64,000 nucleotides of DNA from Wenzhouxiangella sediminis (GTDB taxonomy: Bacteria > Pseudomonadota > Gammaproteobacteria > Xanthomonadales > Wenzhouxiangellaceae). The position numbers were made by a program, and so were the translations under genes. How positions within the stretch are numbered: position 1 is the stretch's first letter; each line of letters opens with the position of its first letter. The notes beneath the pieces are model-generated. The model saw only the letters and a list, made by a program, of their open reading frames with translations. It was not told where the DNA came from and did no database searches. The DNA lies in NCBI RefSeq assembly GCF_003410055.1, contig NZ_QUZK01000004.1, positions 1-64,000 of the forward strand, written 5' to 3'. Below are positions 531 through 30,760 of the stretch, piece after piece.

Positions 531-1376
531 TCAGTCCGGCTTCCGGAAAAGGAAGATGCCCCACTCCAGGTCGCCGCGCTTGCCGCCGTCAACCCAGTGT
601 TGCAGGCCGGCCTTCATTTTCCGGATGTAGTCGTCGCTGACGCCGCGTTCACGGAGGGCCTCTTCGTTGGCTTCGAGTTCCCGCCTGACTCGAGCGTAAT
701 GACGTGGCAACTGGTCACCGTGGTCCTCCCAGGTGACCTCTTCGAGCCCCAGCGCCTCCAGGGTCCGCCGGTAGAAGCCGGGCGAGCCAAGGGAATCGAG
801 GTGAATCCGGTCGTAGATCGGTTGGAGCCGCTCGGGATCGGCGTCGTCGGACTGCATCGGATCGGTGAAGATCAGGCGCCCGCCCGGTTTGAGCACGCGG
901 GCGGCCTCGGCGCAGACGCGGGCCCGGTCGCCGGAATGCAGGATGGCGTCCTGCGACCACACGACATCGAAGCTGCCGTCCTCGTACGGCAGGTTGGTAA
1001 AGTCGCCGTCCACGACTTCGATGAGCTTGTCGAGGCCCTGTTCGGCATTCTTCTCTCGATCCCGGGCGTTCTCGACCTCGCTCAGGTTGAGCGCAACGCA
1101 GCGGCAGCCGAACTCGCGCGCCAGGTAGCGCATCGAACCGCCGTATCCGGCGCCCAGGTCCAGGACGCGAGCGCTCTCGTCCAGGGGGCCGAGCACCTCG
1201 CTCATCCGCTGAACGGTCCGTCGGCTGGCGGCGGCAATGGGTTCCTCGTCGGAGTCGTAGAGACCGACGTGGATATCCTCGCCGCCCCAGACGTGAAAGT
1301 AGAAATTGTCGGCGTCGTCACTGTTGTAGTAGTCCCGGGCCGTCTGGACGACCCGTGAGTAAGCCTGGCTGCTCAT
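531..1376 (-). CDS. Sarcosine/dimethylglycine N-methyltransferase
   Basis: This 281-residue SAM-dependent class I methyltransferase carries motif I VLDLGAGYGG (about residues 70-79) and the motif-IV/post-IV regions DVVWSQDAILH and VLKPGGRLIFTDPM. Sequence style and context match the bacterial sarcosine/dimethylglycine methyltransferases that perform the last two methylations from glycine to betaine. It directly abuts the glycine/sarcosine methyltransferase gene (stop TGA then ATG with no gap), so the two are almost certainly translated together. Betaine is a compatible solute, which points to a salt-stressed habitat. The exact substrate split between the two enzymes is inferred from the family. 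Confidence 0.88.
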   Translation of the reverse strand: MSSQAYSRVVQTARDYYNSDDADNFYFHVWGGEDIHVGLYDSDEEPIAAASRRTVQRMSEVLGPLDESARVLDLGAGYGGSMRYLAREFGCRCVALNLSEVENARDREKNAEQGLDKLIEVVDGDFTNLPYEDGSFDVVWSQDAILHSGDRARVCAEAARVLKPGGRLIFTDPMQSDDADPERLQPIYDRIHLDSLGSPGFYRRTLEALGLEEVTWEDHGDQLPRHYARVRRELEANEEALRERGVSDDYIRKMKAGLQHWVDGGKRGDLEWGIFLFRKPD

Positions 1377-2228: not shown

Positions 2229-2798
2229 GAATCTGGCTTTCTCCTGAATGATTGCTCTGCGAATCCACCGCCAACGGTGCGGCATTCGTGATGCCGAGGC
2301 GCGATCGGTCTGTCGCTCGATACGTCGGTCGCGACGAGGTCGGGCGCCGAAGCCAGCGGAACGGCAGCGATACTAACAAGGGGCCCCGGAAGTTGCAGGC
2401 CGTGGCGGCGGATTCGTTGACATCCGTGATTGCCCGCAGAATTTGTCGGTGCCCGTCAATTGCTCCAGGACACTGACGACCTCCTCCCGGACAAACATGT
2501 GACGCAACACACACACCCGGACCCCACGAGCCAACTGCCGCAAGACTTTTGCGCTCAAGGCACATGTCTTGTAGAAATAGTGACAGTTTCAATGCTTCAA
2601 ACTGCACTGCATGTCGAACAGAGCAATTGACCGATGCCCGGGGTTGCGATACATTTCACAGCCTGATCAATCAGTTGCAAAACCTTTATCACAAGAGTCT
2701 TTGCAGCCGATCCCTGCCGAACCAGCAGCTCCTGGCGGGCTCGAATCGGTACGCGATGCGCCACACGGCCCGATAACGACAATAAAGGGGACAGACAA
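2229..2798. other. 570-base divergent intergenic region (betaine operon / msh locus)
   Basis: This region lies between the divergent betaine operon and mshI. No reading frame in it has convincing coding character. A sigma-70-like promoter toward mshI is visible at 2627-2655. I found no clear promoter for the betaine operon and no recognisable glycine riboswitch. The length leaves room for regulatory sites for both operons. Confidence 0.6.
2627..2655 (+). promoter_or_regulatory. Candidate sigma-70 promoter of the msh operon
   Basis: TTGACC (2627-2632) and TACATT (2650-2655) are separated by exactly 17 bases, about 145 bases ahead of the mshI start. It matches the consensus at 5/6 and 4/6 positions. 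Confidence 0.45.
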
Positions 2799-3722
2799 TT
2801 GAAACTGTTTCGGAAGCGTGCGCGAAACCAGGCCATTACCGGCCTGTACCTGACTCCGCGTGTCCTCGCCACGGCAGCGGTGGATCACCAGCGGGGCCGC
2901 AAGCCGCGCCTGGTGTCTGCGCAATGCCTGGAACTGGGCGGAGACAGGGAGCTCGAACGCGTCGTACAACAGGCCGTCCCCGACCGTGGTTCGCTGGTCA
3001 ACCTGGTGATGGCGGAAGGCCAGTATGAGCTGCTTCTCGTGGAGGCGCCACGCGTCGATCCATCGGAGCTGCGGGCCGCGGTTCGATGGAAGGTTCGCAA
3101 CCTGATCGACTTTCATATCGATGACGCCGTCATCGACGTTTTCGAGATCCCCGGCCAGAACAACCGTCCGCAGGGGCAGGCCATGATGTATGCCGTCGCC
3201 GCACGGGCGCGCGAGGTTCGGGAATACATCGACCTGGTCGAGAACGCCGACCTGGACCTGCGCGTCATCGATATCACCGAGATGGCGCTGCGCAACCTGG
3301 CGGCACAGCTAGAAGAGGACGTGCGCGGCGTCGCCATGCTCTACTTCAGCGACGACCACGGCATCATATCCATCACGCGTCAGGGCAGCCTGTACCTGAG
3401 CCGCAGCCTGGCCACCGGCACCGAACAGCTACTCGATGATCCCGACGCTTCGTATGACCAGATCGCCCTGGAGGTCCAGCGCTCTCTCGACTACTACGAC
3501 AGCCATTTCGGCCAGCCGCCGGTCGCTGCCCTCCGCGTGTTGCCCGGCTTTGCAGCCCACGAAGGCCTGGTCGAGTCCCTCGGCGATGCACTGAGCATTC
3601 CGGTCGACGGCTACCGCAGCGAAGAAGTCGTGTCCAGCGATCTCGAGCTGCCGGACGCATTTCTCTCCGAGTTCCTGATCGCCCTCGGCGGCGCGCTGCG
3701 GCATGAGGAGGTCAGCCTGTGA
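2799..3722 (+). CDS. mshI: MSHA biogenesis protein MshI (PilM-like)
   Basis: This 307-residue protein has the actin-fold character of the PilM/MshI family, a cytoplasmic part of the pilus inner-membrane alignment complex. The start is an unusual TTG at 2799, preceded by AGGGG 8 bases upstream; the first residues MKLFRKRARN are typical for the family. It is the first gene of the cluster. Its stop overlaps the GTG start of the next gene (GTGA), indicating translational coupling. The function is inferred from family and operon order. Confidence 0.85.
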   Translation: MKLFRKRARNQAITGLYLTPRVLATAAVDHQRGRKPRLVSAQCLELGGDRELERVVQQAVPDRGSLVNLVMAEGQYELLLVEAPRVDPSELRAAVRWKVRNLIDFHIDDAVIDVFEIPGQNNRPQGQAMMYAVAARAREVREYIDLVENADLDLRVIDITEMALRNLAAQLEEDVRGVAMLYFSDDHGIISITRQGSLYLSRSLATGTEQLLDDPDASYDQIALEVQRSLDYYDSHFGQPPVAALRVLPGFAAHEGLVESLGDALSIPVDGYRSEEVVSSDLELPDAFLSEFLIALGGALRHEEVSL

Positions 3723-5325: not shown

Positions 5326-7029
5326 ATGCTGCCCATGGACAACACGCCAACACGATTCCTGACCGCTGCAGCGCTCGTCGCGGGCCTGGCGGCCTGCGCC
5401 GCGACCAGCGACCGGGCCGCGGAAATCGACCGCAACATACGCAGCGAGCTCGAAGCCGCGGCCACGCGCGAGGCGCCGGACGTCGAGGAAACGAAAGACA
5501 TCCTGATGCCCGAAGCCGCGCCCGCCTTCGAGCCGCCGCCGGAAGAGCGTTTCCACGTCACGGTGGAAAACGCGCCGGCGCGTCAGTTCCTGATGAGCCT
5601 GGTGGCCGATGCCGACCTGAACATGGTGGTCCACCCCGACGTGGAGCAGACCATTTCCCTGGAGCTGCGGGACGTGACCATCGGTGAGGTCATGCGCATC
5701 GTGCGGGAAGTCTACGGACTCGAGTACAAGCGCACGGAAACCGGCTACATCGTGCGCCCGCCCCGACTGCAGAACCGCATCTACGAGGTCAGCTACCTCG
5801 ACGTCAACCGCAAGGGTTCCTCTCGAACGCGCGTCAGTTCCGGGCAGTCCACGGACAACCCCGACGCCCTGCAGGACGAGTTCGGCGGCCAGGGGTCGAC
5901 GCAGCACCTGCCCGGACAGAACGGCGACGACATTTCCACCGGCACGCGCATCGAGACCGAGAGCGAGTCGGACTTCTGGGCGCAGCTCGAGACGGCCATC
6001 GAAGGCATCTTCGACAGCCCCGAGGGCCGCAACGTGATGCTCAACCCGATCTCCGGCGTGGTCGCCGTTCGCGCCATGCCGCACGAACAGCGGGCCGTGG
6101 CCGAACTGCTCGAGGCCATCCAGGGCAGCGTGCAGCGCCAGGTCATCCTCGAGGCCAAGATCGTCGAGGTGGAGTTGCGCGATGCGTATCGCTCGGGCAT
6201 CAACTGGCAGGCGCTCGAGGACGTCGACGGCCGCCTGCTCGGCTTCGGCCAGGTCGCCGGCCCCAATGTGTTCGGCGACGGGCGATCGGCCATCAGTGAG
6301 CAGCCTTATGCCGTCAGTCCCGGGGAAGTCGTCCAGGGCTTCGAGACCCAGGCCTTCGGCGGCAGCACTGTCCTGACAGCCGATACCGGCAGCTTCAACG
6401 CTTTCATCGAGCTGCTCGAGACCCAAGGCGTCACGCGGGTGCTGTCGAGCCCGCGGGTAGCCACCATCAACAACCAGAAGGCGGTCATCAAAGTCGGCAC
6501 CGACGAGTTCTTCGTCACCGGGGTGACCGGCCGCACGGCCACGGGCGGGGCCAGCACCACCGCCGCCAGTTCGGTCGAACTGACGCCCTTCTTCTCGGGC
6601 ATCGCCCTCGACGTCACGCCGCAGATCAGCCGCCAGGGCGACATCATCCTGCACGTCCACCCGACCGTCTCGGAAGTGCAGGACCAGACCAAGACCTTCA
6701 CCGTCGGCGGTGAACAGGAATCCCTGCCCCTCGCCTTTTCGAGCGTTCGCCAGTCCGACAGCATCATCCGGGCGCGCAACGGCCAGGTGGTCGTCATCGG
6801 CGGACTCATGCGCGAGTCCTCGGAACAAAAGCGCTTCGGCACGCCGGGCCTGAGCCGGATTCCCCTGCTGGGCCAGGCCTTTGGCAGCCGGCAGGAACAG
6901 ACCGTCAAGACCGAACTGGTCATCCTGCTGCGACCGATCGTCATCGACTCGCCGCGCACCTGGGCCCGTGAGGCCGAAGGGGCGCTCGACCGGCTCGGCG
7001 AGATGGGCGACGACACCTGGCCGCGCTGA
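5326..7029 (+). CDS. mshL: Pilus secretin MshL
   Basis: This 567-residue outer-membrane secretin has a lipoprotein-type signal with lipobox LAAC (about residue 24) and a secretin N-domain near residues 65-145 (LMSLVADADLNMVVHP). The C-terminal secretin domain contains VILEAKIVEVELRDAYRSG, VLSSPRVATINNQKAVIKVG and QVVVIGGLMRE. It forms the gated pore through which the MSHA pilus leaves the cell. An in-frame ATG three codons later (5335) is an alternative start. Confidence 0.92.
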   Translation: MLPMDNTPTRFLTAAALVAGLAACAATSDRAAEIDRNIRSELEAAATREAPDVEETKDILMPEAAPAFEPPPEERFHVTVENAPARQFLMSLVADADLNMVVHPDVEQTISLELRDVTIGEVMRIVREVYGLEYKRTETGYIVRPPRLQNRIYEVSYLDVNRKGSSRTRVSSGQSTDNPDALQDEFGGQGSTQHLPGQNGDDISTGTRIETESESDFWAQLETAIEGIFDSPEGRNVMLNPISGVVAVRAMPHEQRAVAELLEAIQGSVQRQVILEAKIVEVELRDAYRSGINWQALEDVDGRLLGFGQVAGPNVFGDGRSAISEQPYAVSPGEVVQGFETQAFGGSTVLTADTGSFNAFIELLETQGVTRVLSSPRVATINNQKAVIKVGTDEFFVTGVTGRTATGGASTTAASSVELTPFFSGIALDVTPQISRQGDIILHVHPTVSEVQDQTKTFTVGGEQESLPLAFSSVRQSDSIIRARNGQVVVIGGLMRESSEQKRFGTPGLSRIPLLGQAFGSRQEQTVKTELVILLRPIVIDSPRTWAREAEGALDRLGEMGDDTWPR

Positions 7030-7957: not shown

Positions 7958-9075
7958 GCCTGATCAACGACGTGCTCAAGGACCTGGAACGGCGCAAGGC
8001 GACAGAGGGGGCGCATGCGCCCCGCTCGACCGAACAGCCCCGGGCGCGGCGCGCTCGACGCCGCTCTCCCCGCTGGACGCTCTGGCTACTGGCCGCCATT
8101 GCCGTGGGCGCCGTCCTGCACCTGAGCCTGGAAGACACCTCGCCGATCGGCGACGGCCGCAAACCGCAAACGCTGACCGCCCGCGCCGGCACGACCCCGG
8201 CACCCGACGCCGTATTGGATGCCGGAAAGCCCGAGACGCAAAGCGACGCCCCGTCACAACGCAAGCCGGCCGAACTCGGGTCCGAAGAAACGCCGTCGCG
8301 CTCGACGAGCGACGCGGAAAGCACCGACGCCACTGCGCAGCGCCGGGTCGACCCGGAGCGTCCAAGGGGCGGTCCTTCACGGCAGGAGCCCGTACAGCCC
8401 GAACCCCCCGAGCCCCTCGAGAGCACGCCGGCCCGGGAGACCGAACCGGCGCCGAAGCCGGAACCGAATATCTCGATTCGCCGCGCCGACGGCGAGGCCG
8501 GGCAGGAGGATCTCCTGGCAACGGCCAAGCGCATGCTCTCGCGCGGCCAGTACCAGCGCGCCGAGTCGCGGCTTCGGCAACTGACCGAAGACCGCCCGGA
8601 GCTCACCGAACCCTACGAGCTGCTGGCGGGAGCGCTGATGCGCCGGGGCCGTCACGATTCGGCCATGCGGGTTCTCGACGACGGACTCGGCCGGGCAAGC
8701 GAGCCCGCGCCGTTGGCCGCCCTGCTCGGCCGGCAACTGCTCGAGCGCGGCGAAATCGCCCGCGCCCGCGACATCCTGCGCCACCACGCGCCGGCGATGG
8801 CCGAGGCGCCGGAATACCACCTGCTGCTGGCCGCCACGCACCGCCAGGCCGGCGATCACGCCGCCGCAGCCGAGCACTACCGCGCGTTGACCGGCATACT
8901 TCCGCGAAGCGGCGCGGCCTGGATCGGTCTGGGCGCCTCCCTCGAGTCGCTGGAGCATCCGGCCGAAGCCGCGAAGGCCTACAATCGGGCCCTCGAAGGC
9001 GACGACGACCGGGCGGCCCGCTTCGCGCGCCAGCGCCTGGCCGCGCTCGCCCCCATCACCGGAGAGCCGCAATGA
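7954..9075 (+). CDS. mshN: MSHA biogenesis protein MshN (TPR)
   Basis: This 373-residue protein starts with MSLINDVLKDLE, the conserved N-terminus of MshN. One membrane helix (about residues 37-54, WLLAAIAVGAVLHLSL) follows, then a proline/glutamate-rich low-complexity linker (about 60-175) and C-terminal TPR-like repeats (about 185-370, such as AKRMLSRGQYQRAESRLRQL and GDHAAAAEHYRAL). It is probably a bitopic scaffold reaching into the periplasm. ATGA overlaps link it to mshM and mshE. Confidence 0.85.
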   Translation: MSLINDVLKDLERRKATEGAHAPRSTEQPRARRARRRSPRWTLWLLAAIAVGAVLHLSLEDTSPIGDGRKPQTLTARAGTTPAPDAVLDAGKPETQSDAPSQRKPAELGSEETPSRSTSDAESTDATAQRRVDPERPRGGPSRQEPVQPEPPEPLESTPARETEPAPKPEPNISIRRADGEAGQEDLLATAKRMLSRGQYQRAESRLRQLTEDRPELTEPYELLAGALMRRGRHDSAMRVLDDGLGRASEPAPLAALLGRQLLERGEIARARDILRHHAPAMAEAPEYHLLLAATHRQAGDHAAAAEHYRALTGILPRSGAAWIGLGASLESLEHPAEAAKAYNRALEGDDDRAARFARQRLAALAPITGEPQ

Positions 9076-25331: not shown

Positions 25332-26039
25332 TCAGTCGCTGTCCGCCAGGGCCGCGGCCACCGCTTCGACCAGGCCGGCCTTGGTTCCAGGCCAGTCCTC
25401 GGCGTCGACGAGGGCCTGGTTGACCTCGAGCTCGATGGTTACCAGGCGATCGGGGCCGAATACCCGGCGATGCTGCTGCCCGAGGCCGTTGGCGGTACCG
25501 CGGTAGGGGACGTTCATCCGCACGCGCAGGTCCGGCAGGCGTGAACTGATTTGCGCGGCCAGGCGCCGGCACAAGCGCTTCTCCGGCGCCCTCGAGGGGT
25601 CATAGAGGAGGCCGATGTCCACCCGGCGCTCCCGCCCTTCCAGAACGGGCGTGAAACTGTGGCAGGCAATGTGAACCACCCGGCCCGCCGCCCCTTCCAC
25701 GAACTCCCGGTAGGCCCGCCAGTGCGGCAGCCACCAGTCGCGCTCGATCCGTTCCCGCTCACCGGGCGGCAAGCCGCGCGTGAACTCGGAAAACCGATGC
25801 GGATGACTCGCCGACCGGTTGAGGTCGATCAACAGCCGGCTCGCCCGCCCGGCAAGCAGCGGCGCGTCGAGTCGCCGGGCCAGGGCGCGGCCCAGCTCCG
25901 CCGTTCCGGGATCCCAGCCCCGGTGCCCGGTCAGTTTCGATTCACTCCCCGCAAAGAACTGCGCGAACCGTCCCGGAATGCGCCGCGAGGCGTGCTCGCA
26001 GGTGATCAGGACCCGAACAGGCGGTTTTGATCCAGGCAT
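25332..26039 (-). CDS. N-formylglutamate amidohydrolase-like enzyme
   Basis: This 235-residue protein is of the N-formylglutamate deformylase/amidohydrolase fold, with VLITCEHASRRIP, HRGWDPGT, HIACHSFTPV and NVPYRGTANGLG, all containing predicted zinc ligands and active-site residues. No histidine-degradation genes are nearby. It is instead the last gene of a four-gene operon with two amide-forming ligases and a peptidase-like protein, so the real substrate is likely an N-acyl or amide conjugate of an acidic amino acid made by its neighbours (inference). It overlaps the preceding gene by 34 bases. Confidence 0.82.
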   Translation of the reverse strand: MPGSKPPVRVLITCEHASRRIPGRFAQFFAGSESKLTGHRGWDPGTAELGRALARRLDAPLLAGRASRLLIDLNRSASHPHRFSEFTRGLPPGERERIERDWWLPHWRAYREFVEGAAGRVVHIACHSFTPVLEGRERRVDIGLLYDPSRAPEKRLCRRLAAQISSRLPDLRVRMNVPYRGTANGLGQQHRRVFGPDRLVTIELEVNQALVDAEDWPGTKAGLVEAVAAALADSD

Positions 26040-27247
26040 TCGGCCAGCTCCCGGTAGCAGTCGACGACGGCCGCTCGCGCGGGCTGCTCCCCGAGGCGCT
26101 GGCGCAGAGCCTCGGCAAGCGTCCGCCTTTCCAGCATGGTCGACAGGGTCTCAGCAGCCGGCGCGGAGACGTCCAGGTCGGCAAGCAACTCGAGCCACAG
26201 GGCACGTCCGTCCTCAACGGCTTTCGACGTCAACAGCGACCGCCACGCCTCGTAGTCGAACGCCGCTCGACTGCCCTCGCGGGCGGCTGAGAACAACTGG
26301 CTCGACAAGGCCTCGGTCGACAGCGCCTGCCCGGCTTCCAGCGTTTCGTCGGACTCGTAGAGCCTTCGGACCAGGGCCAGCACCGCCTCGGCGACCGCCA
26401 GGTCGGCCGTTGGGCACTCCTGGATGTCGATGATGCGAATCTCGATCGTCTGTCGTTCGAAGCGCGCGATCGCACCGCGGGAGTTGAGCCAGTCGTCGGC
26501 CAGGATGCCCTCTGGATCGTACGGGCCGATCGCGCGGTAGATCGGCTGAAGAATGCGTTCCGAGTAGTCGCGGATCGAAGCAACCGGCTCGGGTACCACC
26601 AGGCCGGCTATTTCGGGAATTCGGCGCTGGTTGTCGCGGTAGAACTCCAATCGCGAGTCCATCCACCCCGACCACTCGCCCTCGACCAGCGGGGAAGCGG
26701 ACGAAAGCGCCGGAATCAGCGGCAGGACGAGTCGGATGGCGGCGTGCAGGCGCCGGAATTCCTCGTCGTCGAAGAACGGCAGGTTGATATGCATCGACTG
26801 CAGGTTCGACCAGCCGTGGCCCTGGCATGCGAAGATCCGGTCGTAGGCGGCGTAAATCTCGTTCTGACCATGCGGCCAGAGTCGTGTTTCCGCGGCCGGA
26901 TCGAAGAATGGATGCATGGCCGTGGGCAGCAGCATGGCACCCATCGGCGAGAGCTGTGCATTGATTTCGCGCACATCCTCGGCAAATGCCCCGTCGAGAC
27001 CGCGCAGCGAATCCGCCGGACCATTGGTCTTCAACTCGACGACGTGGAGCACCAGTTCGTTCGACCAGGCGAGCTTGTCCTTGACGACCTCGTTGACGAT
27101 CTCGCCGGCCTGCAAGGCAAGGAGTCGATCTGCCATCGGCGCGACCGCCAACGTTTCCCGGTCGACGATCATGTATTCCAGTTCGATGCCGAAGCCGGCA
27201 AAGGCGTGCAGGTGGGGCTGCGGTGTGACGGGTTCGATAGTCGGCAT
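26006..27247 (-). CDS. GCS2-family carboxylate-amine ligase
   Basis: This 413-residue protein belongs to the glutamate-cysteine ligase GCS2/YbdK family, with FGIELEYMIVD at the N-terminus, SMHINLPF, and a motif region ETIEIRIIDIQECP-like near residues 270-285 (QTIEIRIIDIQECP). Such enzymes join an amino group to a glutamate-type carboxylate with ATP. The usual glutathione synthetase partner (gshB) is absent and the neighbour is a RimK-type ligase, so glutathione synthesis is not the obvious role. It starts 5 bases after the ATP-grasp gene. Confidence 0.85.
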   Translation of the reverse strand: MPTIEPVTPQPHLHAFAGFGIELEYMIVDRETLAVAPMADRLLALQAGEIVNEVVKDKLAWSNELVLHVVELKTNGPADSLRGLDGAFAEDVREINAQLSPMGAMLLPTAMHPFFDPAAETRLWPHGQNEIYAAYDRIFACQGHGWSNLQSMHINLPFFDDEEFRRLHAAIRLVLPLIPALSSASPLVEGEWSGWMDSRLEFYRDNQRRIPEIAGLVVPEPVASIRDYSERILQPIYRAIGPYDPEGILADDWLNSRGAIARFERQTIEIRIIDIQECPTADLAVAEAVLALVRRLYESDETLEAGQALSTEALSSQLFSAAREGSRAAFDYEAWRSLLTSKAVEDGRALWLELLADLDVSAPAAETLSTMLERRTLAEALRQRLGEQPARAAVVDCYRELAECLDQNRLFGS

Positions 27248-27252
27248 GACGG

Positions 27253-28725
27253 CTACTGCAAAGAGGCACGCCCGAGCTTGCGCTCGGTGACGCGTTTGAA
27301 CATGACGCCCATGATGTCGCGATAGAGCGCGTCCTTGAGGACCGCGTCTTCGCAGCCGGCGTCGATGGAAGGGTTATCGTTGATCTCGATGACCAGCACG
27401 CGGCCGTCGACTTCCTTGAGATCCACGCCGTAGAGGCCGTTGCCGATCAGGCCGGCAGCCTTGACCGCGGTGTGAACCACGGACTCGGGGGCCTCCCCCA
27501 CTGTAAGCGTGTCGGCCATGCCCTCGTCACCGCCGCCCATTTCGTGGTTGATGATCTGCCAGTGACCCCGTGCCATGTGATAGCGGCACACGTACAGTGC
27601 GCGCCCGTCGATTACGCCGACGCGCCAATCGAAGGCCGTCGGCAGGTACTCCTGCGCCACGATCAATTCACTGCGGCGCAGCATCTGCCGCACCGTGCAT
27701 TCGAGCGTCTCGCGGTCCTCGATCTTCACCACGCCAAGCGAAAAGGCACTGTCGGGCTGCTTGAGCACCACGGGCAGACCCAGCCTCGACTCGATTTCGG
27801 CGGCATTGTCGCGGTGAACGAGCAGTGTTCGGGGCGCGGCGATCCCGTGACGCTGCAGCAATTCGGCGAGGTAGACCTTGTTGGTGCACTTGAGAATCGA
27901 ATCCGGGTCGTCGATCACCACCAGGCCTTCGGCCGCCGCCTTGCGCGCGAAGCGGAAGGTGTGGTGGTTGACCGCCGTGGTCTCGCGGATGAACAGCGCA
28001 TCGAACTCGGCCAGGCGCCCGATCTCGTCGGGGCCCACCCGTTCGACGTGAAAACCGACCGCTTCCCCGGCACGCTCGAAACGCGAAAGCGCCTTTTCAT
28101 CCGAGGGCGGGTGCGCTTCTTCAGCGTTGACGAGCATCGCCAGATCGAAGCGCGAGACCCTGGAACGCCCTGCTCGCGGTCGCTTGCCCGAAAAATACCG
28201 CCCGGCCGCTTCCCGGACGAAATCGAGATGCGTGTCGGGGATGTCGCTGAAAGAAATCGGGGCAATCCGCTTGAGCGCCCAACCTTCCGTCAGGCGCTGG
28301 AAGCGGGCGCGCAAGAGCGGCGCCGGAAACAGATTGAACAGCGCCCGGGAGAGTCGATCGTAGCGTCGCGCCAGGTTGCGGCCGAAATAGATCGAAAGCG
28401 TGAACTCGTCCGACTGCAGCGGCTTGAGCCCGGTCTCGATCAGCCGCGCCAGTTCCACACCGGTCATGCGAACGATGTTGGGCGCCTTGAAGTCCTGGAG
28501 CGTGGCCACCGACGGCAGGGGCTTGTGCCCGCGAGCGGCCGCCAACAGCGATACGTAGTAGCCGTTGGACTGGTAGCCGTAGCTGCGGCACAGGTTGTAG
28601 ACGCGGGTCGAACGGCGCTCGGACCAGCCCGGATCAGTGAGGTAGTCACGCGCCAGAACGCGCTCGACGCCCTCGATTTCCAGCGGCCAGTCCTCGGCTC
28701 GACTGACGACGATCAGTTGCTGCAT
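27253..28725 (-). CDS. RimK-family ATP-grasp ligase with N-terminal RLAN-type domain
   Basis: This 490-residue protein has an N-terminal domain (residues 1 to about 200; YNLCRSYGYQSNGYYVSLLA, PNIVRMTGVELARLIE) that is the RimK-like ATP-grasp N-terminal (RLAN) type. The ATP-grasp core spans about 230-480, with FIRETTAVNHHTFRFARKA, CTNKVYLAELLQRH, VVLKQPDSAFSLGV and VIEINDNPSIDAG (metal-binding E/N-x-N). RimK enzymes add glutamate or related residues to a peptide C-terminus. It overlaps the C39-like gene by 13 bases. The acceptor is unknown. Confidence 0.87.
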   Translation of the reverse strand: MQQLIVVSRAEDWPLEIEGVERVLARDYLTDPGWSERRSTRVYNLCRSYGYQSNGYYVSLLAAARGHKPLPSVATLQDFKAPNIVRMTGVELARLIETGLKPLQSDEFTLSIYFGRNLARRYDRLSRALFNLFPAPLLRARFQRLTEGWALKRIAPISFSDIPDTHLDFVREAAGRYFSGKRPRAGRSRVSRFDLAMLVNAEEAHPPSDEKALSRFERAGEAVGFHVERVGPDEIGRLAEFDALFIRETTAVNHHTFRFARKAAAEGLVVIDDPDSILKCTNKVYLAELLQRHGIAAPRTLLVHRDNAAEIESRLGLPVVLKQPDSAFSLGVVKIEDRETLECTVRQMLRRSELIVAQEYLPTAFDWRVGVIDGRALYVCRYHMARGHWQIINHEMGGGDEGMADTLTVGEAPESVVHTAVKAAGLIGNGLYGVDLKEVDGRVLVIEINDNPSIDAGCEDAVLKDALYRDIMGVMFKRVTERKLGRASLQ

Positions 28726-29423
28726 GGTCGAATCACCAACAGGTTGGCATCGTAGGTCAGGGCGCCCAGAAGGATTGCGCCGATGACGCGATCGATGTGC
28801 ACACTGTAAACCTGGCGACCCTGCGGATTGGGGCTGGTCGGGTCGGCCACGATCACCTCTCGCGTTTCGCGCCGGTAGCCCGCCAGCACCACGAAATGCC
28901 CGACCGGTTCGCCGCGGATATCGTCGTCGGCATCTTCCGGCCCCCACTCGCGCGCACCGCGGTAGAGATAGGTCGCGCTCAAGCCCGTGAGGACCGGATG
29001 TCCGTCCGACAGCAATCGGCGCAGCAACGCCCGGTTGAGGTCCTCGAAACGGATTCGACCGCCCGACTCGAGATACTGAAGATAGCCGTCGGTGGCGATG
29101 GAGAGCTTCTCACGCCGCTTGAAGGCGGCCTGACGCCGCAAACGCTCGCAGAGGTCGATCTTGGGTCCGGCGAACCAGGTCGGATCGAAGACCTCGAGGT
29201 TCCAGGTGTGGATAACGGCCCGATACCCGCGCGCCAGGGCATGATTGGCCAGGAACACGTCGAGTGTGCCGCCATGATCCAGCCGGTGAATCTCGTCGAT
29301 GACCCGCGTCAGCTCGATGTCGTCGCCGAAATGCCGATAGACGGCATGCAGGCAGGTGGGCCCGCAAGTCGTGGTATCGGGCTGGGCCTCGATCACCACG
29401 GGAGGGGAAACGGAAAAACTCAT
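28713..29423 (-). CDS. C39-like cysteine peptidase of the amidoligase operon
   Basis: This 236-residue protein has DTTTCGPTCLHAVYRHFG, a papain/C39-type catalytic Cys (Cys20) with preceding Gln14, then GHFVVLAGY carrying the likely His and VADPTSPN with the Asp. It has no ABC transporter domains and no signal peptide, so it is likely a cytoplasmic peptidase or transglutaminase-like enzyme. It is the first gene of the four-gene operon. The ATG at 29423 was chosen over a longer frame because conservation starts there. Confidence 0.82.
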   Translation of the reverse strand: MSFSVSPPVVIEAQPDTTTCGPTCLHAVYRHFGDDIELTRVIDEIHRLDHGGTLDVFLANHALARGYRAVIHTWNLEVFDPTWFAGPKIDLCERLRRQAAFKRREKLSIATDGYLQYLESGGRIRFEDLNRALLRRLLSDGHPVLTGLSATYLYRGAREWGPEDADDDIRGEPVGHFVVLAGYRRETREVIVADPTSPNPQGRQVYSVHIDRVIGAILLGALTYDANLLVIRPCSN

Positions 29424-29554
29424 GAGAAGCCACCCGCGGGCGACGGCGCTTAGCGCAACGCAGCTTAGATTATCGCTCCAAACGGCGGTTCCCGTCGGCA
29501 AAAAATATTGTTCAATCAGCTAAACTGCCCCATTGCCATTTTCGACTGGCCTCG
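29424..29554. other. Divergent promoter region
   Basis: This 131-base gap separates the amidoligase operon (minus) and the TraB-family gene (plus). It includes an AT-rich patch AAAAAATATTGTTCAATC near 29500-29517 where promoters for either side could lie. No single convincing -35/-10 pair was found. Confidence 0.4.
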
Positions 29555-30760
29555 ATGACCCCCGATCAACAGGAACTCTTCGGAGACGAGCCCGTACGCC
29601 ACGTCACGCGCGACGGCGTCGACTACGCCCTGCTCGGCACCGCTCACGTCTCGCGCACCAGCGCCGAGGCCGTCGAACGCCTGATCGACAGCGGTCACTA
29701 CGATGCCGTTGCCATCGAGCTTTGCGCACCGCGCTACCAGACCCTCACCCAGCGCGATGCCTGGCGGAACATGGACCTGTTCCAGGTCATTCGCCAGGGC
29801 AAGGCCGGCATGATGATGGCCTCGCTCGCCCTGGCCGCGTACCAGCGGCGCATCGCCGAACAGTTCGGTATCGAGCCGGGCGCCGAAATGAAAATGGCCA
29901 TCGAGGCCGCCCGGCGAGCCGAAGTGCCGGTACAGCTCGTCGATCGCGACATCGGCATCACCCTGCGTCGCGCCTCCCGTCGGCTTTCGTGGTGGAAGCG
30001 CTGGCTGATGCTCAACGGCCTGGTCATGTCGATGTTCTCGCGCCAGGAAGTCAGCGAGGAAGACATCGAGCGCCTCAAGCAGGGCGACCTGCTGACCGAG
30101 ACCTTCAGCGAGTTTTCCGAAACCGCTCCCGAGCTGTTCGAGTCGCTCATCGCCGAACGCGACCGCTTCATGGCCGCGCGCCTGCGCCAGGAAAACGAGG
30201 GCCGCGCGCCGCGCAAGGTACTCGCCGTCCTCGGTGCCGGGCACCTCGAGGGCACCGCAAAGGCCCTGGAAAGCGACGCCGACCCGGTCGAATCGGTCGA
30301 GCACCTGAATACCATGCCGCCGCGATCGCGATTCCTGAAATACCTGCCCTGGCTGATTCTCGGCCTGGTGGCGACGGGCTTCATCATCGGCTTCACGCGG
30401 TCGCCGGAACTGGGCTGGGCCCTGGTAACGACCTGGGTGGTGATCAACGGCACGCTCTCGGCCCTGGGCGCACTCATCGCAGGCGGCCATCCCCTGACGG
30501 TGGGCACCGCGCTGGTCGCCGCACCACTGACCTCGCTCAATCCGACGATCGGTGCCGGCATGGTCACAGGCGCAGTCGAAGCGGCCCTGAGGAAACCGAG
30601 AGTGGGTGACTTCGAAACCCTCCGCGACGATGTCGTCAAACTCTCGGGTTGGTGGAAGAATCGCGTTTCACGCGTCCTGCTGGTTTTCTTCCTGTCCAAC
30701 CTCGGTTCGGCGATCGGCACCTGGGTGGCCGGCTTCAGAATGGTCCAGCAGCTGTTCTAG
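29555..30760 (+). CDS. TraB-family membrane protein
   Basis: This 401-residue TraB/GumN-type protein has GTAHVS near residue 29, AIELCAPRY and GAGHLEG (about 228), the putative protease-like active-site motifs. Three or four membrane helices (about 265-395) follow. Homologues occur from archaea to plants; in Enterococcus TraB limits pheromone activity, but here the role is unknown. It stands alone with its own upstream region. Confidence 0.78.
   Translation: MTPDQQELFGDEPVRHVTRDGVDYALLGTAHVSRTSAEAVERLIDSGHYDAVAIELCAPRYQTLTQRDAWRNMDLFQVIRQGKAGMMMASLALAAYQRRIAEQFGIEPGAEMKMAIEAARRAEVPVQLVDRDIGITLRRASRRLSWWKRWLMLNGLVMSMFSRQEVSEEDIERLKQGDLLTETFSEFSETAPELFESLIAERDRFMAARLRQENEGRAPRKVLAVLGAGHLEGTAKALESDADPVESVEHLNTMPPRSRFLKYLPWLILGLVATGFIIGFTRSPELGWALVTTWVVINGTLSALGALIAGGHPLTVGTALVAAPLTSLNPTIGAGMVTGAVEAALRKPRVGDFETLRDDVVKLSGWWKNRVSRVLLVFFLSNLGSAIGTWVAGFRMVQQLF

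Follow-up and report, generated by a model that had tools for sequence, protein, structure and literature searches.

A widespread RLAN amidoligase operon from Wenzhouxiangella sediminis with a possible glutathione-like role in making and recycling an amide conjugate

What would a bacterium make with two amide-forming ligases, a papain-like enzyme and an amidohydrolase encoded side by side? The question is raised by an operon at positions 25332–29423 (minus strand) of the window analyzed here, a stretch of 64,000 nucleotides of the Wenzhouxiangella sediminis genome (contig NZ_QUZK01000004.1). Four complete open reading frames (ORFs), all on the minus strand, are arranged in transcription order as a C39-like papain-fold cysteine enzyme (28713–29423, 236 amino acids; PF13529, Peptidase_C39_2, 46.3 bits), an RLAN plus RimK-like ATP-grasp carboxylate-amine ligase (27253–28725, 490 amino acids; PF14401, 161.1 bits, with the RLAN domain at 28207–28653, and PF08443, 43.6 bits), a GCS2-family carboxylate-amine ligase (26006–27247, 413 amino acids; PF04107, 93.7 bits) and an accessory N-formylglutamate amidohydrolase (FGase)-family protein that is not HutG (25332–26039, 235 amino acids; PF05013, 98.3 bits). 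All four exceed the Pfam gathering score for their family, and none reaches an NCBIfam cut-off. An earlier reading of the letters alone (the sequence-only reading) had proposed this operon and these families, with a 13-base overlap between the C39 and RLAN genes, a 5-base gap before GCS2 and a 34-base overlap between GCS2 and FGase. The coordinates and Pfam scores confirm each point, and the intact catalytic motifs it described agree with likely catalytic residues that are invariant across aligned relatives of all four proteins. Our preferred answer, to which we assign a probability of about 0.42, is that the operon encodes a self-contained cytosolic pathway that makes, trims and recycles a small amide conjugate, following a logic like that of glutathione.

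Relatives of the window RLAN protein numbered 152, and the genomic neighborhoods of the best 80 were compared, a sample that thus favors this branch. After removal of loci without contig room (5 of 80 for C39, 14 for GCS2 and 23 for FGase), C39 was found upstream of the RLAN ligase in 72/75 loci and GCS2 downstream in 64/66, with FGase downstream in 38/57 and missing in 19. Unfiltered presence was 76/80, 74/80 and 41/80, respectively, the FGase counts taking in one weak match (L042, 5e-36) and one gene 1.6 kb distant (L033). Median gaps along C39-RLAN-GCS2-FGase were 2, -4 and -4 bases with script-chosen starts, and no fusion joining any of the four families was found among the ORFs scanned. 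By record titles, the source organisms represent about a dozen phyla, mostly as metagenome bins; one locus titled Acidobacteriota (L019) falls among planctomycete rows of the tree and may be mislabelled. The sequence-only reading had staked its case on the four families adjoining one another in other genomes as well, and these counts bear it out, rare adjacency being the outcome that failed to appear. What survives of its compact system is a conserved amidoligase neighborhood, not a fixed four-gene unit. Besides the FGase gaps, L064, L070 and L044 lack C39, and L044 and L008 lack GCS2. Every non-ligase part can thus be dispensable in some lineage, FGase being lost most often, with roughly 14 gains and losses on the tree, an approximate figure given that 32 of 95 inner branches are unresolved. 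No replacement gene was apparent by eye in the 22 FGase-less loci listed.

Two of these reduced loci deserve separate description. L044 holds a spirochaete RLAN ligase, with no C39 or GCS2 match on its contig stretch. In L008, the segment at 2580–2950 (+), between RLAN and FGase, resembles a decayed GCS2 start by eye, with a non-significant profile E-value of 1.4.

Co-inheritance within the window's own family points the same way. RLAN is present in 22 of 43 family genomes, and in 17 of 30 genomes of one genus, some of them incomplete. Strong GCS2 matches occur in 20/22 RLAN-positive versus 0/21 RLAN-negative genomes, C39 in 20/22 versus 0/21 and FGase in 18/22 versus 1/21 (Fisher tests of 3e-10, 3e-10 and 2e-7, relatedness ignored). 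Weak matches (E-value above 1e-15) to housekeeping GCS2, HutG-like and other proteins in RLAN-negative genomes were excluded as not of the operon type. The two RLAN-positive genomes without a GCS2 match and the four without an FGase match are cases in which the operon runs off the contig. Across the 43 genomes, the four genes have largely been gained and lost together.

Several genomes of this set show departures of their own. One RLAN-negative genome (G403, L154) carries a lone operon-type FGase at 6018–6740 (-), with no RLAN, C39 or operon-type GCS2 matches, which may be a leftover or in independent use. Two genomes of the genus to which the window belongs, G434 and G422, lack C39. The former (L153) keeps RLAN, GCS2 and FGase and has no C39 between RLAN and the TraB-like gene (8496–8695); the latter (L155) retains fragments matching both ends of the C39 gene just upstream of RLAN, at about 1070–1200 (-). 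In G409, a C39 match on contig C9 (936–1625) is interrupted by one stop codon, through error or decay.

A sister branch of RLAN ligases in other Pseudomonadota helps to separate the core of the system from its accessories. RLAN occurs in 72 of 398 Pseudomonadota genomes, and operon-type GCS2, scored on at most four candidates per genome, in one, the window's own. A six-frame search of 20 sister regions found RLAN in all 20 and neither GCS2 nor FGase in any. Fourteen regions had a GNAT-C39 fusion adjoining RLAN, five (L120, L121, L124, L138 and L139) a GNAT lacking the C39 half and one (L123) neither, so that a GNAT of either form accompanies RLAN in 19/20. By Pfam, the four fusions tested were GNAT plus DUF3335 and the three ligases tested RLAN plus RimK; PMC10318531 describes DUF3335 members as frequently fused to GNAT domains. 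The tree comprises 98 rows, 80 of the window branch (one truncated row omitted) and 18 of the sister branch, and the two branches separate on it. Four sister rows bear an assumed GNAT label; three of the underlying regions have a GNAT match, and L123 has none. The sister system thus resembles the window's in its RLAN ligase family and frequent C39-like domain, and differs in that GNAT replaces GCS2 and FGase is lacking. Because GNAT is found in 19/20 regions versus 14/20 for the C39 half, it is the capping enzyme rather than C39 that accompanies RLAN steadily here. C39 itself is frequent in either branch and has been lost from some lineages of both, and in the sister branch it is not a constant partner. 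Overall, the steady pair looks to be an RLAN ligase with a capping-type enzyme, GCS2 or GNAT, with FGase optional, and the sister-branch counts favor a capping function.

The GCS2 and FGase families invite comparison with glutathione synthesis and histidine degradation. In the operon GCS2, E22, E24, E71, E269, R271 and D274 are invariant in 52 aligned sequences, and several invariant positions are shared with YbdK in the printed alignment. FGase-family membership is likewise indicated by E15, H16, H39, H127 and E205, invariant in 39 aligned sequences; the protein is presumably zinc-dependent, and for all operon enzymes the likely catalytic roles of invariant residues are those typical of the families. 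Glu203 of the FGase is invariant in 39/39 relatives and is Gln in HutG and Met in Atu2144, whose structure (2odf) is the nearest solved one by alignment profile (E-value 6.5e-43). Four further positions, invariant arginines in these relatives, suit an anionic substrate, as judged from the alignment.

Could the operon simply be a spare copy of either pathway? Family membership of GCS2 and FGase favors the idea, yet the genome has dedicated enzymes elsewhere and the operon proteins fail the corresponding models. A separate glutamate-cysteine ligase (TIGR01436, 645.6 bits versus a cut-off of 463.15), only remotely resembled by the operon GCS2, is encoded on another contig, as are a true HutG (TIGR02017, 341.8 versus 278.75), a GSH-S_ATP-family (glutathione-synthetase-family) protein (230.7 bits), hutU and hutH; the protein beside HutG may be HutF by position and appearance. 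No glutamate-cysteine ligase of the gamma-proteobacterial type (PF04262) turned up in the genome. In contrast, the best score of the operon GCS2 against the glutamate-cysteine and carboxylate-amine ligase equivalogs was 62.9 bits versus a cut-off of 371 (NF010039), and the operon FGase had no NCBIfam match, TIGR02017 included, at an E-value of 0.001. The sequence-only reading had argued against textbook roles from the lack of gshB and histidine-degradation genes nearby, which is true of the locus and not of the genome. Dedicated paralogues elsewhere make a stronger case than their absence would, and since those genes exceed the textbook cut-offs that the operon proteins fall short of, its conclusion gains support: operon roles in textbook glutathione or histidine metabolism appear unlikely from sequence comparison, and a spare copy of either pathway is very improbable.

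For the first enzyme of the operon, Cys20, His176 and Asp194 are invariant in 54 aligned sequences and Gln14 nearly so, identifying a papain-fold cysteine enzyme with a predicted Cys-His-Asp triad. Its predicted structure (predicted local distance difference test, pLDDT, 91.9) is closest to the PCAT1 peptidase (8vp5; Z 16.2, root-mean-square deviation (rmsd) 2.0, 137 residues aligned), followed by the phytochelatin synthase Alr0975 (2bu3; Z 14.9, rmsd 2.7, 160 aligned) and plant papain-like proteases (Z about 11). The likeness to phytochelatin synthase is one of fold only, PF05023 not being among Pfam matches of the operon C39 at an E-value of 0.001. In sequence, the enzyme is nearest to leader peptidases, the peptidase domains of ComA and PCAT1, which would suit maturation of a ribosomally synthesized and post-translationally modified peptide (RiPP) or bacteriocin with C39 as its leader peptidase. 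The 236-residue protein nevertheless stands alone with no fusion to an ATP-binding cassette (ABC) transporter, and small ORF families within 1 kb occur in at most five loci, the one group of that size lying antisense to an EgtC-like gene; double-glycine precursors were not searched genome-wide. We rejected bacteriocin processing on the lack of a transporter fusion and of a widely shared small ORF within 1 kb, and consider peptide maturation the least probable of the alternatives.

The ligase, by its fusion of RLAN to a RimK-like ATP-grasp domain, belongs to the RLAN-ATP-grasp amidoligases (PF14401), and its K283, K322, E447 and N449 are invariant in 56 aligned sequences. Structural comparison of the predicted model (pLDDT 83.7) spans about residues 190–487, that is, the ATP-grasp part with the RLAN domain outside. 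The closest folds were LysX (3vpd; Z 27.6, rmsd 2.1, 265 aligned), ArgX (3vpb; Z 27.4, rmsd 2.4, 266 aligned) and RimK (7qys; Z 26.1, rmsd 2.8, 272 aligned), each matching over roughly residues 190–480, with D-Ala-D-Ala ligases at Z 21–23. None of the equivalogs tested accounts for the protein: it scored 24.7 bits versus a cut-off of 272 for glutathione synthase (NF003573), 41.7 versus 331 for the S6-glutamate ligase RimK (NF007764) and 73.1 versus 275.6 for LysX (TIGR02144).

LysX, ArgX and RimK all act on protein C-termini, and the extra RLAN domain could bind a protein. These features underlie the chief rival to a small conjugate, in which the RLAN ligase would tag the C-terminus of a protein encoded elsewhere, GCS2 or GNAT would modify the added residue, and C39 and FGase would remove it. 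Known GCS2 and FGase enzymes act on small molecules, which speaks against tagging, as does the lack of a family of at least 80 amino acids recurring beside the 80 loci in more than one clade or two, or of a widely shared small ORF within 1 kb, a genome-wide target search not having been made. RimB, which counteracts RimK, is the precedent for removal, and the pair is described in PMC12239564. The RimK-RimB and LysX/ArgX-LysW systems share the ATP-grasp fold class with the operon and differ in that their equivalog cut-offs are not reached and that the operon peptidase is papain-like, not retropepsin-like. No LysW-like carrier gene was seen beside the operon among the ORFs compared within 1 kb, with no genome-wide search for one. 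We regard tagging as a serious but rather unlikely explanation.

Neighboring genes were scanned as a further clue to function, with 114 of 116 proteins covered; the two left out belong to L050, which is nearly identical to L049. No conserved fifth gene exists across the 80 loci; clade-specific ones do, and no neighbor family of at least 80 amino acids recurs beyond one clade or two. Six planctomycete loci (L046, L064, L070, L071, L072 and L078) carry a VitK2_biosynth-type gene and an alpha/beta hydrolase gene upstream on the same strand, as scanned in L072 and L078; L064 and L070 are among the loci without C39. By eye, a symporter-like family appears in three loci and an ABC-ATPase-like family in four, up to 4.7 kb away. 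Between the window operon and the divergent gene starting at 29555 (+), which is TraB/PrgY-like to judge from the Pfam match of the L003 counterpart, lies a 131-base intergenic stretch (29424–29554) that presumably bears promoters and has no room for a gene above about 40 codons.

In five loci forming two separate groups (L010, L012, L019, L025 and L027), an EgtC-like class-II amidohydrolase gene adjoins the operon on the opposite strand. EgtC removes gamma-glutamate, and this adjacency fits a gamma-glutamyl cap. The two EgtC-like proteins tested scored 203.7 and 204.7, just below the EgtC cut-off of 218.65. Given the opposite strand, and since Pfam identified no ergothioneine gene among the five next neighbors scanned, the adjacency may be due to chance. 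Varying accessory hydrolases (FGase, alpha/beta hydrolase, EgtC-like) and the patchy presence of RLAN within one genus would also accord with amine or xenobiotic handling. On that view GCS2 would attach gamma-glutamate to an amine or a foreign amino acid, the second ligase would extend the product, and the hydrolases would set free parts that are usable or harmless. A steady transporter or redox-enzyme neighbor, however, is lacking among the top 25 of 117 neighbor families, and we judge this role unlikely.

How might a pathway for a small amide conjugate operate? GCS2 would cap an amine or amino acid X after activating a carboxylate, most probably the one at the gamma position of glutamate. 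The RLAN/ATP-grasp ligase would then activate a carboxylate of the capped intermediate and add an amino acid Y to give Cap-X-Y. Next, the papain-like C39 enzyme would form an acyl-enzyme with the conjugate, leading to hydrolysis or transfer, in the way that phytochelatin synthase treats glutathione. In loci that have it, the FGase-like hydrolase would cleave an acyl-NH-glutamate-type amide so that the parts are recycled. In the sister branch, GNAT, often fused to a C39-like domain, would replace GCS2 and cap from an acyl-CoA. We infer all substrates, the step order, the cytosolic location and the nature of the product, taken to be a small molecule and not a tagged protein. A cycle that builds and removes an amide conjugate, as the sequence-only reading envisaged, is plausible.

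The proposed order follows glutathione synthesis, in which GCS2 precedes ATP-grasp, together with the phytochelatin synthase analogy. That known system likewise combines a GCS2-type ligase, an ATP-grasp ligase and a papain-fold enzyme able to act on the product, and differs in that the operon proteins fail its models and the genome has its own glutathione-type enzymes. The idea of a cap derives by analogy from ergothioneine and butirosin synthesis; the latter (BtrJ/BtrH/BtrG) includes an ATP-grasp ligase, as the operon does, and a gamma-glutamyl protecting group. The N-terminal domain of BtrH is closely related to C39, according to PMC10318531. Butirosin synthesis differs in that neither acyl carrier protein nor aminoglycoside genes were observed next to the operon of the window.

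Several observations weigh against this pathway. No substrate residue of GCS2 was matched to glutamate or cysteine, and L008 keeps C39, RLAN and FGase without GCS2. Neither trimming nor recycling is obligatory, given that a third of loci lack FGase and a few lineages lack C39. The leader-peptidase affinity of C39, the C-terminus-modifying relatives of the ATP-grasp domain and the non-ergothioneine surroundings of the EgtC-like genes belong on the same side.

Iyer et al. in 2009 reportedly predicted that RLAN amidoligase neighborhoods make peptides or peptide modifications. Such neighborhoods are already a known kind; the present analysis contributes the comparison of the two branches, the evidence of co-inheritance and the case against textbook roles. 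The sequence-only reading knew of no defined product, and our literature search, with few subscription papers within reach, likewise turned up neither a characterized product of such an operon nor a paper recognizably devoted to it. Tentatively, and with considerable doubt, we suggest that a new gamma-glutamyl-type small conjugate may be made here and there across about a dozen bacterial phyla and serve, in parallel with glutathione, as a cofactor, buffer or protectant. Its synthesis would pair the RLAN ligase with either GCS2 or GNAT as exchangeable capping enzymes, use a papain-like enzyme for trimming or transfer, and draw on recycling hydrolases that can likewise replace one another. Presence and absence within one genus, together with relatives naturally lacking C39 or GCS2, would allow a direct comparison of metabolites. 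Retention of the four genes from Wenzhouxiangella to Planctomycetota, Bacteroidota and Spirochaetota suggests a product worth keeping.

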